From Tannerellaceae bacterium (GTDB lineage: Bacteria; Bacteroidota; Bacteroidia; Bacteroidales; Tannerellaceae), in contig JAISWO010000068.1 in assembly GCA_031271045.1 (NCBI GenBank), forward strand, positions 1 to 33,816: a stretch of 33,816 bases of DNA, read 5' to 3'. The notes under the pieces were generated by a model. It made no database searches. It worked only from the letters and a program-made list of their open reading frames with translations, and was not told the DNA's origin. A program made the translations under genes and the position numbers. Below, piece after piece: positions 10,332 through 21,880 of this stretch. Every line of letters starts with the position of its first letter. The stretch's first letter is position 1.

Positions 10332-11594
10332 ATGCTCTACGACCTCTTTTCCTATCTGGATCAACTGGATTTCCCCGGGGCGGGAATGTTCAAGTATGTA
10401 TCTTTCCGTTCCGGTCTGGCGCTGATTCTATCCCTGTTTATATCAACCTCCATCGGAAGGAGAATCATCAACAAACTGCAACGATTGCAAATAGGCGAAA
10501 CCGTCCGCAACCTGGGGCTGGAAGGACAGATGAACAAAAAAGGCACCCCCACGATGGGAGGCATCATCATCATCATCGCCATCCTGATCCCTGTCTTGTT
10601 GTGCGCCCGGCTGAACAACGTCTACCTGATACTGATGCTGATTACGACCATCTGGCTGGGAGGCATCGGATTCGCGGACGATTACATCAAGGTGTTCCTC
10701 AGGAACAAAGAAGGGCTTCACGGACGTTTCAAGATCATCGGCCAGGTCGGGCTGGGGCTGATCGTAGGTTTGGTACTCTACTTCAGTCCCGACGTTGTGA
10801 TACGCGAGAACAGCGAGATACTCAACAAGGATCAGACCGTAGAGGACGTAAGGATACATTCCGAAGTAACCAAGTCGACCCAAACGACGATCCCTTTCCT
10901 GAAGAATAACAATTTCGACTATGCCTATCTGGCAGCCTGGGCCGGCGATCACCGGGAAGAAGCGACCTGGGCGGTATTCATACTGGTCGTTATTTTCATT
11001 GTAACGGCCGTTTCCAACGGCGCCAACCTGACCGACGGGCTGGACGGACTGGCCGCCGGCAGTTCGGCCATTATCGGCATTGCCCTGGGCATCCTGGCCT
11101 ATATGTCGTCGCACGCCGAGTTTGCCTCCTTCCTGAACATCATGTTTATTCCCGGCGCGGAGGAGCTGGTGGTCTTTGCCGCCGCCTTTTTCGGAGCCAC
11201 GGTCGGCTTCCTTTGGTATAACTCCTATCCGGCGCAGGTCTTTATGGGAGATACGGGCAGCCTTACCCTGGGAGGAATCATCGCCGTCTTTGCCATCATT
11301 ATCCGCAAAGAACTGCTTATTCCCATTTTGTGCGGAGTGTTTTTGGCCGAAAGCCTTTCGGTCATGCTGCAAGTGGCTTATTTCAAGTTCACAAAGAAAA
11401 AGTATGGCGTCGGAAAGCGCATATTCAAGATGACCCCCCTTCATCACCACTTCCAGAAAGCCGGCAATAGCGGCATAGATGCCATCCTGCAAAAGCCATA
11501 CGGCGTAATACCGGAATCAAAGATTGTCGTACGCTTCTGGTTAATCGGTATCATCCTGGCCGTTATAACAATTGTCACATTAAAGATGAGATAA
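10332..11594 (+). CDS. mraY: Phospho-MurNAc-pentapeptide transferase MraY
   Basis: MraY transfers phospho-MurNAc-pentapeptide to undecaprenyl phosphate, forming lipid I at the inner membrane. Diagnostic features are [13 protein letters not shown], the aspartate pair GFADDYIK, the [12 protein letters not shown] motif, the [11 protein letters not shown] loop and the C-terminal [12 protein letters not shown]. It has about ten membrane segments. At 420 residues it is longer than the roughly 360 of proteobacterial MraY, because of an extra hydrophilic loop at about residues 160-205, a length I regard as usual for Bacteroidetes. Its TAA stop shares one base with the ATG of murD (TAATG), indicating translational coupling. 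Confidence 0.97.
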
Positions 11595-13618
11595 TGAATA
11601 CAACAAGAATCCTGAAGCCGGCATTTGGAAACGTCTCCCATCCGGAAACCGTTCCAAGTTCCTCGGAAACATTTCTCAGAGATTCGGAAATGTTCCTCAG
11701 AGGCACGGAAACGTTTCTCAGAGATTCAGAGATGTTTCTCAGAGGCGCAGAAAGGTTTCTCAGAGACTCGGAAAAATTTCTCAGTGACTCAGATATGTTC
11801 CTCAATGAATCAGATCTATTTCTCAGTCCCTCAGAAAAGTTTTTCAGAGACACAGAAATGTTTCTCAGCGACTCCAAAGCGATTTGCAGCGACTCCAAAG
11901 TGCTTTTCGAAAGCTCCAACGCGATTTTAAAAGGCTCCAAAGAACTTTTCAGAGGTTCCAAAGCGCTTTTCGGAGGCTCACAAACGCTTTTCAAAGGATC
12001 CAAAGCGCTTTTCGGAGACTGCAAAGTACTTTTCAGAGGCTCCAAAGCGATTTGTAAGGACTCACAAACATTTGTAAGCCTCTCACAAACATTTGTAGAA
12101 GGCTCACAAACATTTGTAGAAGACTCACAAAAGTTTGTAAGAGACTCACAAACATTTGTGAGAAGCTTACAAACATTTGCGAGAGGCTTACAAAAGTTTG
12201 TAGAAGACTCACAAACATTTGTGGAAGACTCACAAATGTCTGTGGAAGGCTCACAAATGTCTGTGAAGAGCCCTCCTGCCAACGGGAAGAGGATCGCTGT
12301 CCTGGGAGCGGGAGAGAGCGGGACGGGTGCCGCTGTGCTGGCTAAGGCGAAAGGCTTCGACGTCTTTGTGTCGGACGCCTCCGGTATCAAGCCGGAATAC
12401 AAAGAGATGCTCGACGCCCGCCATATCCGCTGGGAAGAAGGCGGCCATAGCGAAGCGGAAATCCTTTCGGCCTGCGAAATCATCAAAAGCCCGGGCATCC
12501 CCAACACCGCCCCGCTGATAAAAAAGGCAATGGAAAGACGAATCCCGGTTATCTCGGAAATCGAATTTGCCGGACGTTATACCAACTCCACCATGATCTG
12601 CATTACGGGAAGCAACGGGAAAACAACCACCACCCGGCTGACCTACCACATACTCCAACAGGCCGGACTGGACGTAGGTCTGGCCGGCAACGTCGGCGCC
12701 AGCCTGGCGCTCCAAGTGGCGGAAAGCCCCCATGCCTGCTATGTCGTCGAGCTGAGCAGCTTCCAGTTAGACAATATGTACGACTTCAGGGCCCATATCG
12801 CCATCCTGCTGAATATAACCCCCGATCATCTGGACCGGTACGAATATAAAATGCAGAACTACGTTGAATCCAAATTCCGCATCCTGCGGAATCAGACGCC
12901 GGAAGATGCGTTTATCTACTGGAACGACGACCCGGTCATAGCCGCCGAAGTCGCCCTCCGCCATCCGGCCGCCACCTGCTATCCCTTTGCCGAAACGCGC
13001 AAAGACGGCGTAAAAGGATACACTGAAAACAAACAATTGGTTATTGACACAATAAATGGTTTATTTATTATGGAACAAGATTTATTGGCATTGACAGGTA
13101 CGCACAACCTGTACAACTCTTTGGCATCGGGCATTGCGGCCAAAATAACGGACATCCAGGACGAGAAGATCCGCGCTTCCCTGAGCGATTTCTCCGGCGT
13201 AGAACACCGCTTGGAGAAAGTTGCCCGCGTGCGGGGCGTAGATTATATCAACGACTCAAAGGCAACCAACGTCAACTCCTGCTGGTATGCGCTCAAAAGC
13301 ATGAATACCCCGGTGGTACTCATCCTCGGCGGCACAGACAAAGGCAACGACTATGCCGAAATAGAAGAATTAGTCGCACAAAAAGTACGCGCCCTGATAT
13401 TCCTCGGATTGGACAACAGCAAGCTGCACGCCTTCTTCGACGGCAAAGTCCCTTTGATCGAAGACGCCTGCTCGATGGAAGAAGCCGTCTCCACAGCCTA
13501 CCGCCTGTCGGAGAAAGGCGACACCGTGCTGCTCTCGCCCTGTTGTGCCAGCTTCGACCTCTTTGCCAACTATGAAGACAGAGGCAAGCAGTTCAAAACC
13601 TGCGTGCGCAATCTGTAA
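11594..13618 (+). CDS. murD: UDP-MurNAc-L-alanine:D-glutamate ligase MurD with a heptapeptide-repeat N-terminal extension
   Basis: MurD adds D-glutamate to UDP-MurNAc-L-Ala. The core starts at about K232 (KRIAVLGAGESGTGAA), has the P-loop GSNGKTTTT with K343, an NITPDHLDRY block and NDSKATN, and spans about 443 residues, the family's full length. The first 231 residues are foreign to Mur[10 protein letters not shown], two degenerate units, then 29 uninterrupted heptapeptides (residues 24-226). The ATG at 11594 overlaps the mraY stop, so it looks like the ancestral coupled start. In-frame ATGs at 12236 (M215) and 12257 (M222) could instead start a near-normal MurD, with GGAAGG just upstream of the latter. 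Whether the extension is translated, cleaved or bypassed cannot be told from sequence. No MurD catalytic motif appears damaged. Confidence 0.93.
   Translation: MNTTRILKPAFGNVSHPETVPSSSETFLRDSEMFLRGTETFLRDSEMFLRGAERFLRDSEKFLSDSDMFLNESDLFLSPSEKFFRDTEMFLSDSKAICSDSKVLFESSNAILKGSKELFRGSKALFGGSQTLFKGSKALFGDCKVLFRGSKAICKDSQTFVSLSQTFVEGSQTFVEDSQKFVRDSQTFVRSLQTFARGLQKFVEDSQTFVEDSQMSVEGSQMSVKSPPANGKRIAVLGAGESGTGAAVLAKAKGFDVFVSDASGIKPEYKEMLDARHIRWEEGGHSEAEILSACEIIKSPGIPNTAPLIKKAMERRIPVISEIEFAGRYTNSTMICITGSNGKTTTTRLTYHILQQAGLDVGLAGNVGASLALQVAESPHACYVVELSSFQLDNMYDFRAHIAILLNITPDHLDRYEYKMQNYVESKFRILRNQTPEDAFIYWNDDPVIAAEVALRHPAATCYPFAETRKDGVKGYTENKQLVIDTINGLFIMEQDLLALTGTHNLYNSLASGIAAKITDIQDEKIRASLSDFSGVEHRLEKVARVRGVDYINDSKATNVNSCWYALKSMNTPVVLILGGTDKGNDYAEIEELVAQKVRALIFLGLDNSKLHAFFDGKVPLIEDACSMEEAVSTAYRLSEKGDTVLLSPCCASFDLFANYEDRGKQFKTCVRNL
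11663..12271 (+). repeat. 29-unit, 21-bp tandem repeat array inside murD
   Basis: Twenty-nine consecutive 21-bp units run without any indel and code for heptapeptides at residues 24-226 of the MurD ORF; two degenerate units precede them (from about 11621). Family 1 (units 1-10, 11663-11872) encodes S-E-x-F-L-R-D/G. Family 2 (units 11-19, 11873-12061) encodes mostly S-K-A-L-F-x-G. Family 3 (units 20-29, 12062-12271) encodes S-Q-T-F-V-E/R-D. At the same place in each unit lies a 10-bp palindrome, GAAA-nn-TTTC, AAAG-nn-CTTT or CAAA-nn-TTTG by family. Eighteen of 29 units are perfect Watson-Crick palindromes by my count. The array is visibly poorer in G+C than the flanking genes. I do not recognise it as a named repeat family. 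Confidence 0.95.
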
Positions 13619-14882: not shown

Positions 14883-17342
14883 ATGAAACCAAACTGCCGT
14901 ATCATCATAAGCGGAGGAGGAACGGGAGGGCATATCTTCCCGGCTATCGCCATCGCCGACGCACTGAAAGAACGTTGCCCGGAAGCCGAGATCCTTTTCG
15001 TCGGAGCCGACAACCGGATGGAGATGGAGCGTGTCCCGGCGGCCGGCTACCGGATCGTAGGACTGCCCGTAAGCGGATTCGACCGCGCCCATTTATACAA
15101 AAACATACACGTCCTTTTCCGGCTCGTCAAAAGTCTGCGCTTAGCCCGAAAAATTGTCAGCGACTTCAAGCCCGACATCGCCATCGGAGTAGGCGGATAT
15201 GCCGCCGCACCCACCCTTTGGGCCGCCGCCCAAAAACGTATCCCTGTCCTGATACAGGAACAAAACTCGTACGCCGGCCTTACAAATAAAATCCTGGCCC
15301 GGAAAGCCGGCGCCATCTGCGTCGCTTACGAAGGGATGGAACGCTTCTTCCCCGCCGACAAGATCGTAATCACCGGCAACCCCGTACGTAAAGACCTGGA
15401 AGACATCGCCGGGAAAAAGGCCGACGCCCTGGCCTTTTTCGGCCTCTCCCCAGAGAAGAAGACCCTCCTGGTGATCGGCGGCAGCCTGGGCGCCCGTACG
15501 ATCAACCACAGTATCCGGGAACACCTGGACATGCTGCTTGCCGGCGTACAGATCATCTGGCAGACCGGGCGCAGCTATTACAAAGAAGCCCTGACATACG
15601 TGGAGAGATATAAAGACAACCCCTCCATCCTCTGTTTCGACTTTATTACCCGCATGGACTATGCCTATGCCGCCGCCGACTTAGTCATCTCGCGCGCCGG
15701 AGCCGGGACGATCTCCGAACTCTGCCTGCTGGCCAAGCCGGTGATACTGACGCCTTCCCCCAACGTGGCAGAAGACCATCAAACCAAGAACGCCCTGGCA
15801 TTGGTAGCAAAAGATGCCGCCATTCTCGTACCCGACAAAGACGCCCGGACGCATTTGGCGTCCAAAGCGCTGGAGGTCATACAAGACGACAGGCTCCTTC
15901 TCTCGCTGAGCCGTCATATAGCCGCCTTAGCCCAACCCCATAGCGCCGGCCGCATTGCCGGCGAAGCCCTGCACCTGATGGGCGGAGGGAACGTTTATTT
16001 CGTAGGAGCCGGCGGTATCGGCATGAGCGCCCTGGCGCGTTATTTCCTCTCAAAAGGAAAACAGGTGGCCGGCTACGACCGCACCCCTTCCCCCCTGACG
16101 GAAGAACTGAACCGGGAAGGTGCCTCCATCCACTATACCGACGATGCCGGCCTGATTCCCGTAGACTTCCGCTCCTCGGCCCATACACTCGTTATCTATA
16201 CACCGGCCGTACCCGAATCGCACACCGAGCTGGCCTGGTTCCGCTCCCATAAATTCAACGTTCAGAAGCGGGCGCAAGTATTGGGAGAGATCACCCGCAA
16301 CACCCGCGGGCTTTGCATCGCCGGCACCCACGGGAAGACAACGACCTCTTCCATGACGGCCCACCTGCTCAAACAATCCCATGTCGACTGCAACGCCTTT
16401 CTGGGCGGCGTACTCAAAAACTACGACACGAACCTGATGCTCTCGGAAAAAAGCGACCTGACGGTGATTGAAGCAGACGAATACGATCGCTCCTTCCACT
16501 GGTTGACGCCCCACATGGCCGTTATTACCTCCGCCGACCCCGATCATCTGGACATATACGGCACGCCGGAAGCTTATCGCGAAAGCTTCGAGCATTTCAC
16601 ATCCCTGATACGCTCCGGTGGTTGCCTGATCCTGAAAGACGGCGCCCCCATCACCCCCCGCCTCAAACCCGGCGTCCGCCTCTACACCTATTCCGGCGCC
16701 GACAAGGGCGACTTCCACGCAGAAAACATCCGCATCGGTAACGGGGAGATATATTTCGATTTCGTTGCGCCGGACACACGTATCAACGACATACAATTGG
16801 GAGTCCCCGTAAAGGTGAACATCGAAAACGGCGTCGCCGCCATCGCCCTGGCCCATCTTAACGGCGTAAGGGCGGACGAGATAAAAAGAGGAATGTTGTC
16901 CTTTGAAGGAGCCCGACGCCGCTTCGACTTCCACCTGAAAAGAGACGACCTTGTACTCATCGACGATTACGCCCACCACCCTTCGGAACTCCGGGAAAGC
17001 ATCCTGTCGGTAAAAGAGCTGTATGCCGGGCGGAAAATAACCGGCATCTTCCAGCCTCATCTCTATTCCCGCACACGCGACTTTGCCGCCGGATTTGCCT
17101 CCGCCCTGTCGCTGCTGGATCAACTGATTTTACTGGACATCTATCCAGCCCGCGAAGAACCTCTGCCGGGCATAACGTCGCGGATCATCTTCGACAGCGT
17201 ATCCATCCCGGATAAGATCCTGTGCACAAAAGAAGAGCTCCTCCGGCGGATGGCTACCGGGACGTATGATGTCGTCCTGATGCTCGGAGCCGGCGACATC
17301 GACCGCCTGGTAGAACCCGTAAAACAAGCGCTGAACCGATGA
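14883..17342 (+). CDS. murG/murC: MurG-MurC fusion: lipid II synthase joined to UDP-MurNAc:L-alanine ligase
   Basis: One 819-residue ORF holds two complete enzymes. Residues 1 to about 367 are MurG, which transfers GlcNAc to lipid I at the inner face of the membrane: ISGGGTGGHIFPAIAIADAL, GGSLGARTINHSI and SRAGAGTISEL are present. From about residue 370 comes MurC, which adds L-alanine to UDP-MurNAc: NVYFVGAGGIGMSALARYF, the P-loop GTHGKTTTSS with K485, and DDYAHHPSE. The junction LHLMGGGNVYFVG has almost no linker. M366 at 15978 could serve as an internal MurC start. The separate murG and murC of relatives are adjacent in this order, so a lost stop and start easily explains the fusion. It starts 3 bp after ftsW and overlaps ftsQ by four bases. 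Confidence 0.93.
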   Translation: MKPNCRIIISGGGTGGHIFPAIAIADALKERCPEAEILFVGADNRMEMERVPAAGYRIVGLPVSGFDRAHLYKNIHVLFRLVKSLRLARKIVSDFKPDIAIGVGGYAAAPTLWAAAQKRIPVLIQEQNSYAGLTNKILARKAGAICVAYEGMERFFPADKIVITGNPVRKDLEDIAGKKADALAFFGLSPEKKTLLVIGGSLGARTINHSIREHLDMLLAGVQIIWQTGRSYYKEALTYVERYKDNPSILCFDFITRMDYAYAAADLVISRAGAGTISELCLLAKPVILTPSPNVAEDHQTKNALALVAKDAAILVPDKDARTHLASKALEVIQDDRLLLSLSRHIAALAQPHSAGRIAGEALHLMGGGNVYFVGAGGIGMSALARYFLSKGKQVAGYDRTPSPLTEELNREGASIHYTDDAGLIPVDFRSSAHTLVIYTPAVPESHTELAWFRSHKFNVQKRAQVLGEITRNTRGLCIAGTHGKTTTSSMTAHLLKQSHVDCNAFLGGVLKNYDTNLMLSEKSDLTVIEADEYDRSFHWLTPHMAVITSADPDHLDIYGTPEAYRESFEHFTSLIRSGGCLILKDGAPITPRLKPGVRLYTYSGADKGDFHAENIRIGNGEIYFDFVAPDTRINDIQLGVPVKVNIENGVAAIALAHLNGVRADEIKRGMLSFEGARRRFDFHLKRDDLVLIDDYAHHPSELRESILSVKELYAGRKITGIFQPHLYSRTRDFAAGFASALSLLDQLILLDIYPAREEPLPGITSRIIFDSVSIPDKILCTKEELLRRMATGTYDVVLMLGAGDIDRLVEPVKQALNR

Positions 17343-21803: not shown

Positions 21804-21880
21804 GCACAACACCATTGTGCAATGCTGCACAAAGCCATTGTGTAATGCTGCACAAAGCCGTTGTGCAAAAGCTCCACACG
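21804..21880. repeat. Small array of interleaved inverted repeats (GCACAA/TTGTGC)
   Basis: A 23-bp unit beginning CCATTGTGCAATGCTGCAC is present at 21812-21834, nearly exactly at 21835-21857, and degenerately at 21858-21880. Inside unit 1, TTGTGCA (21815-21821) pairs with TGCACAA (21826-21832) around a 4-nt loop; unit 2 does the same with one G-T pair. GCACAA at 21804-21809 can alternatively pair with TTGTGC at 21815-21820, so two competing hairpins are possible. The array lies just after the phosphatase stop codon, in its 3' untranslated region. Confidence 0.7.

Follow-up and report, generated by a model that had tools for sequence, protein, structure and literature searches.

The murD gene of a Tannerellaceae bacterium carries a palindromic tandem array of noncoding type, which has probably been captured in frame behind the gene's coupled start and seems to be tolerated there as an N-terminal tail of MurD. 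This reading, built on sequence comparison, draws on the membership of the array in a genome-wide class, its absence from the corresponding junctions of 16 relatives, covarying dyads, neutral amino acid change and an open frame. The case illustrates how a noncoding repeat may become attached to an essential enzyme without disrupting it, where two genes adjoin with nothing in between. It also draws attention to a trait of these Bacteroidales genomes that has been little described: dense, often palindromic arrays with periods near multiples of two helical turns. Within the window (the whole stretch of 33,816 nucleotides that was analysed), the relevant features are the following.

10332 to 11594, plus strand: mraY, from the ORF list, with Pfam matches to Glycos_transf_4 and MraY_sig1
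11594 to 11599, plus strand: ancestral start ATG and codon 2, AAT, as judged from the junction sequences of relatives
11600 to 11659, plus strand: lead segment, residues 3–22, holding one or two badly decayed units
11660 to 11869, plus strand: array section 1, 10 units, dyad GAAAnnTTTC, residues 23–92
11870 to 12058, plus strand: array section 2, 9 units, dyad CAAAGnnCTTT, residues 93–155
12059 to 12268, plus strand: array section 3, 10 units, dyad ACAAAcaTTTGT, residues 156–225
12236 to 12259, plus strand: in-frame ATG codons at 12236 and 12257, in the last two units, as possible alternative MurD starts
12269 to 12286, plus strand: linker SPPANG, residues 226–231
12287 to 13618, plus strand: complete MurD core, residues 232–674, from K232 (Pfam)

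We envisage that a palindromic minisatellite entered murD directly behind the coupled start codon and in frame. Ribosomes finishing mraY would then restart at 11594 and yield a MurD with about 230 extra residues, which the enzyme may tolerate because the N-terminus of its core is exposed, as we take it to be from MurD structures. A length of 21 bp amounts to two turns of B-DNA. It is also seven codons, such that the array could grow or shrink within the gene without a frameshift, and because of this a spacerless junction could absorb it.

The locus and its mraY–murD junction

The murD frame spans 11594–13618 and encodes 674 residues; its start codon overlaps the stop of mraY in a TAATG at 11592–11596, just as the initial annotation had read it. 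That annotation also had the array running in frame into a complete MurD core at K232, and so it does: the frame is open, and MurD_N, Mur_ligase_M and Mur_ligase_C occur in order, all above their Pfam cut-offs. The core aligns with those of 24 relatives at 36–82% identity, the upper value belonging to the nearest named relative found. Besides the two ATG codons, in-frame GTG codons lie at 12242 and 12263 near the end of the array. A search of the bacterium's own genome returned no second copy of the lead segment, the other matches falling within 447–673 of the query. Further along the window, murG and murC are fused in a single 819-residue frame (14883–17342, plus strand) that carries both glycosyltransferase-28 domains and all three Mur ligase domains by Pfam; open frames of similar length occur at a match a few kb downstream of murD in four members of the family (G009, G011, G017 and G022). 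Here and below, G000 is the bacterium's own genome and other G-numbers denote comparison genomes, with one genome per species.

Relatives were compared at 88 junction loci, 87 from the family, own genome included, and one from another family (G025); 86 of these could be measured, G129 and G040 having no readable mraY. The distance from the mraY stop to the MurD core is at most 112 nt in 82 of the 86. The long junctions are those of the own genome (692 nt), G131 (625 nt), G095 (447 nt, with an array) and G096, where the long gap (L237) is an artefact of an incomplete mraY match. In G131 (L266), the space between mraY and murD holds an ORF some 190 residues long that looks ORF6N-like by eye, and no array. 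Within the genus, the core begins 5–17 nt after the mraY stop in all 16 other species measured (G002 was left out, its match being cut by a contig end), which leaves no room for an array. The own genome shares ATG-AAT over the mraY stop with G001, G003, G004, G005 and G007, codon 2 being AAA or AAG in others. In four of these sisters (G001, G003, G004 and G005) the array-free junction reads ATG-AAT-AAG or ATG-AAT-AAA, while in the own genome 690 bp lie between AAT and AAG, of which the segment 11600–12286, displaced codons included, makes up 687 nt of lead, array and linker. This supports the earlier proposal that the block was inserted, or grew, after a coupled start of ancestral origin and ahead of the enzyme.

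The accompanying statement that MurD normally has no such segment holds for nearly all relatives examined but not for G095, a second species of the family, where a different 42-bp palindromic array is in frame with MurD. At the threshold used, 111 of 123 family genomes gave a MurD match, and among these only the own genome has an open murD frame of more than 600 residues, G095 being next with 590. Across the 88 loci, arrays precede murD in three genomes (G000, G095 and G129); against a density of one array per 5–11 kb, this is not clearly above chance, and enrichment of arrays at murD was set aside on that count. Immediately ahead of its murD, an uncultured Parabacteroides has a heptanucleotide repeat, AATTGAC (L061, 2953–2984).

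Structure of the array

The array consists of 29 consecutive 21-bp units at 11660–12268 with zero indels, as had been noted at the outset; the residues first given, 24–226, denote the same block as our 23–225 in a register shifted by one residue. Tandem Repeats Finder (TRF) rows across it score 122–248, whereas 381 kb of the own genome, once dinucleotide-shuffled, yielded one two-copy match only, so the array is not a product of chance. Nor is an assembly error likely, judging from the sequence, because the units differ by 2–6 bases from the consensus of their own section, and because a comparable in-frame array is found in G095, which is a single contig.

Alignment of the units shows three sections, which the initial annotation had not distinguished; they have their period in common, but the central palindrome of the unit changes from one to the next. 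Columns 7 and 16, for instance, pair as C-G in 10 units, G-C in 9, A-U in 8 and G-U in 1, with 1 unpaired, and across the four core pairs of the dyad, 88.8% of cells are paired. The covariation score of the dyad is 0.452 versus 0.164 in shuffles, a value reached by none of 500 shuffles, and it falls to 0.18 or less when one dyad arm is shifted by 1–3 columns; this covariation represents about two historical palindrome changes between three sections, inherited within sections, and not 29 independent events. The strand also folds far better than its shuffles do, with z of −5.0 as RNA and, for section 3, −9.7 as DNA.

Compensatory changes in the dyads and strong folding of the strand, together with the many arrays whose periods fall at multiples of about 21 bp, are what one would expect if the array acted here as DNA or RNA, either as a helically phased protein-binding array or as mRNA hairpins that set the output of murD relative to mraY. 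Such a role appears quite improbable, however, since the array is not conserved at the mraY–murD junction, which argues against a shared regulation, and many different unit sequences coexist in one genome, which argues against a single sequence-specific binder.

Translation and protein-level constraint

The initial annotation offered, among other options, a dedicated binding or localisation domain. In its broader form, this explanation holds that the heptads S-x-x-[FL]-[LFV]-x-x make up a functional domain for binding, localisation or assembly, and the regular heptads with their hydrophobic pair lend it some appeal, as does a weak beta-roll-like match of the tail alone (E 5.5e-5; 23.6 bits, below the Pfam cut-off of 30). 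Given an F and L content of 22% in the array, some structure in the tail is possible. The pattern of substitution, on the other hand, shows no sign of constraint at the protein level: with 104 inferred changes among units, the observed/expected N/S ratio is 1.01 in the murD frame (0.81, 1.16 and 1.13 by section), and the five other frames give 0.77 to 1.43. The corresponding ratios for the G095 and G129 arrays, 0.64 and 0.62, come from 21 and 16 changes, numbers too small to carry weight. No Pfam model scores above cut-off over the array block, the tail in G095 is of quite different sequence, the 16 other same-genus junctions measured are free of any array, and the section 3 repeat is non-genic at five further places, in both orientations. 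A functional domain is thus not supported by substitution pattern or Pfam and strikes us as most improbable; an open heptad-repeat frame is, in itself, no evidence of a protein domain. Among the options first listed, it is the tolerated tandem expansion that the data favour.

Whether the tail is made at all is a separate matter. The murD frame has 0 stops across the 203 array codons, where a star-tree null expects about 3.8 (p=0.019, assuming independent substitutions); a control plus frame that was also open at the start gained 3 stops of 3.9 expected. One antisense frame is likewise free of stops, for which the same null gives a chance of 0.089. In G095, no ATG, GTG or TTG occurs in the 33 codons preceding the MurD core, so some translation of the array is likely in that genome. 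Openness alone is nevertheless weak evidence of translation, because an open array frame also runs into downstream genes that have a natural ATG after the array, as in three genes of G095 and one of G017 (judged by eye).

These cases bear on another explanation, under which the array amounts to an intergenic spacer, with MurD made from the in-array ATG at 12257 or 12236 and the coupled ATG useless. Five other open-frame arrays leave a natural ATG in place, namely the three G095 genes, the one in G017 and murD of G129, where the array ends just before the natural ATG in an intergenic arrangement. Further, the near-unity N/S ratio fits a spacer, and a local fold predicts the ATG at 12257 to be unpaired at 0.87 versus 0.31 for the ATG at 11594. 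Averaged over the start region, though, it is the 11594 site that is the more accessible (0.50 versus 0.37 at 12257); the ATG-AAT inherited from the ancestor is unaltered, no stop interrupts the frame before the core, and G095, with no ATG, GTG or TTG near its core, likely translates its array. We consider a spacer unlikely, if far from negligible, and regard translation of the murD array as, on balance, the likelier state of affairs from what the sequence holds.

Tandem arrays across genome and family

In the own genome, the section 3 repeat recurs on both strands at five further places (C25, C68, C2, C20 and C70); the same search gave no clear match elsewhere in the genome for sections 1 and 2. 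On an ORF-based gene map, three of the five are clearly intergenic, free of any ORF across the array; the remaining two, C25 and C20, have small ORFs that run over the array, and all five count as non-genic by the ORF rule. Eight proteins neighbouring these places were scanned, and the five with a Pfam match include ribonucleotide reductase, methylmalonyl-CoA mutase and a glycoside hydrolase. The array-bearing gap before the mutase gene is 492 nt in the own genome; among the four relatives whose upstream gene could be located, the gap measures 134 nt in G005, 159 nt in G002, 167 nt in G001 and 538 nt, with no array detected, in G004. A different 42-bp array precedes the mutase gene in G011.

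MITE ends were sought in the 120-nt flanks of the murD-family arrays, and no common leader or tail emerged, only unit ends extending at most about 7 nt past the TRF edge (C25/C2). The one MITE-like sign seen is a 26-nt inverted repeat in the flanks of a singleton 21-bp array elsewhere in the own genome (L187, 346–418). At 21804–21868 the window also holds a palindromic array with a 23-bp period; it belongs to another family (TTGTGCA..TGCACAA), which is found on two other contigs of the genome as well.

More broadly, we counted TRF arrays of at least 60 bp and a period of at least 15, calling genes by a crude longest-ORF rule with ATG starts. The own-genome sample of 381 kb (13.7% of the genome, weighted to contigs chosen for murD-family arrays) holds 35 arrays, or one per 11 kb sampled, divided into 28 non-genic and 7 coding rows; of the latter, the murD array accounts for two and a 69-bp repeat in one 1741-residue ORF for four, and one is doubtful. 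Non-genic periods are 21, 22, 23, 41, 42, 63, 69, 84, 126 and 167, the period comb fits best at 21.0 bp, and a dyad is present at p<=0.05 in 15 of the 26 non-genic arrays tested (2 of the 28 were left out by period or length). By sequence, four array families are each represented at several places, and there are singletons besides.

Sister species keep the period and change the words. Three AAAnnTTT cores spaced 21 bp apart occur in 6 of 18 same-genus genomes, own genome included, in three of them only once; TTTnnAAA is the pattern in G003 and G013, and 10 of the 18 have neither. Arrays are fewer in G007 and G020 (7 and 14 per 200 kb), with dyads in 4 of 7 and 1 of 5 tested, respectively. In G095, one contig of 3.01 Mb, 400 kb sampled by hand-spaced stretches, one of them chosen for holding murD, contain 77 arrays, or one per 5 kb; 56 are non-genic, 25 of these with a period of 41 or 42, the comb lies at 20.85 bp, and 20 of the 51 tested have a dyad (5 of the 56 were left out by period or length). 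The other 21 are coding by the ORF rule, and seven of those places were inspected. Several contigs of G003 and G013 (L161–L170) terminate inside an array or shortly past one, so arrays probably interrupt short-read assemblies and are undercounted in them.

Other genes bear comparable repeats. An FtsW-like protein of G013 and G006, so called from inspection by eye and from its position, has a C-terminus lengthened by NSEQL-type repeats that a 21-bp repeat encodes (L034, 4028–4106; L036, 185–257), and in G003 an 814-residue frame of outer-membrane look, LptD-like by eye, has five LMPDSLA-type heptapeptide repeats (L163, 1697–1797). A more speculative reading, less likely than not, is that genomes of this family harbour species-specific, often palindromic arrays with periods of whole paired helical turns, made and spread by a process that reads the geometry of DNA rather than its sequence; since 21 and 42 bp are whole codons, this process would feed in-frame tails into essential genes, and MurD would have captured one at least two times independently. 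If a quantum of about 21 bp is real, what copies and spaces the units becomes a testable question.

Comparison with known repeat systems

The open-access literature, judged from listings, yielded no account of such arrays beyond Porphyromonas gingivalis and none of a MurD tail. REP elements, a third point of comparison beside the P. gingivalis repeats and the palindromic repeats of Rickettsia, are linked to a transposase.

The arrays closely recall BrickBuilt, a minisatellite/MITE of P. gingivalis with 23-bp units, and the 41-, 23- and 22-nt direct repeats and 41-nt MITE464/PgRS of the same species (Klein 2015, PMC4596501, and work cited therein). Those too are dispersed, imperfect tandem units of 22–23 or 41 nt in a member of the Bacteroidales, and the genomes examined here have akin lengths of 21, 22, 23 and 41–42 bp. 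As with BrickBuilt, tandem units of about two helical turns occur at several genome places, six for the 21-bp murD-type family and three for the 23-bp family. Many BrickBuilt copies, however, have a leader, a tail and terminal inverted repeats in common, and the element is described as always intergenic; murD-family arrays have no common leader or tail, and the array in murD is intragenic, placed after codon 2 and ahead of the core. Unlike BrickBuilt, moreover, the own genome contains many unrelated unit sequences.

REP/BIME elements are likewise short palindromes in many copies, described as extragenic, 20–40 bp long and carrying a GTAG or CGTC tag (PMC3733652). The murD-type arrays differ in being strictly head-to-tail, at a fixed period of whole helical turns. 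Another close parallel is the RPE of Rickettsia, palindromic repeat DNA found in frame in metabolic genes and thought to be compatible with the host protein (PMC10969869). The murD array is similarly a palindromic element in frame in a gene whose orthologues are without it, but an RPE is given there as about 150 bp with a conserved peptide, whereas murD has 29 tandem 21-bp units at its extreme N-terminus, undergoing neutral change. The murD array works like an RPE, being a palindromic repeat carried in frame, and is built like BrickBuilt, but it departs from each in a defining feature.
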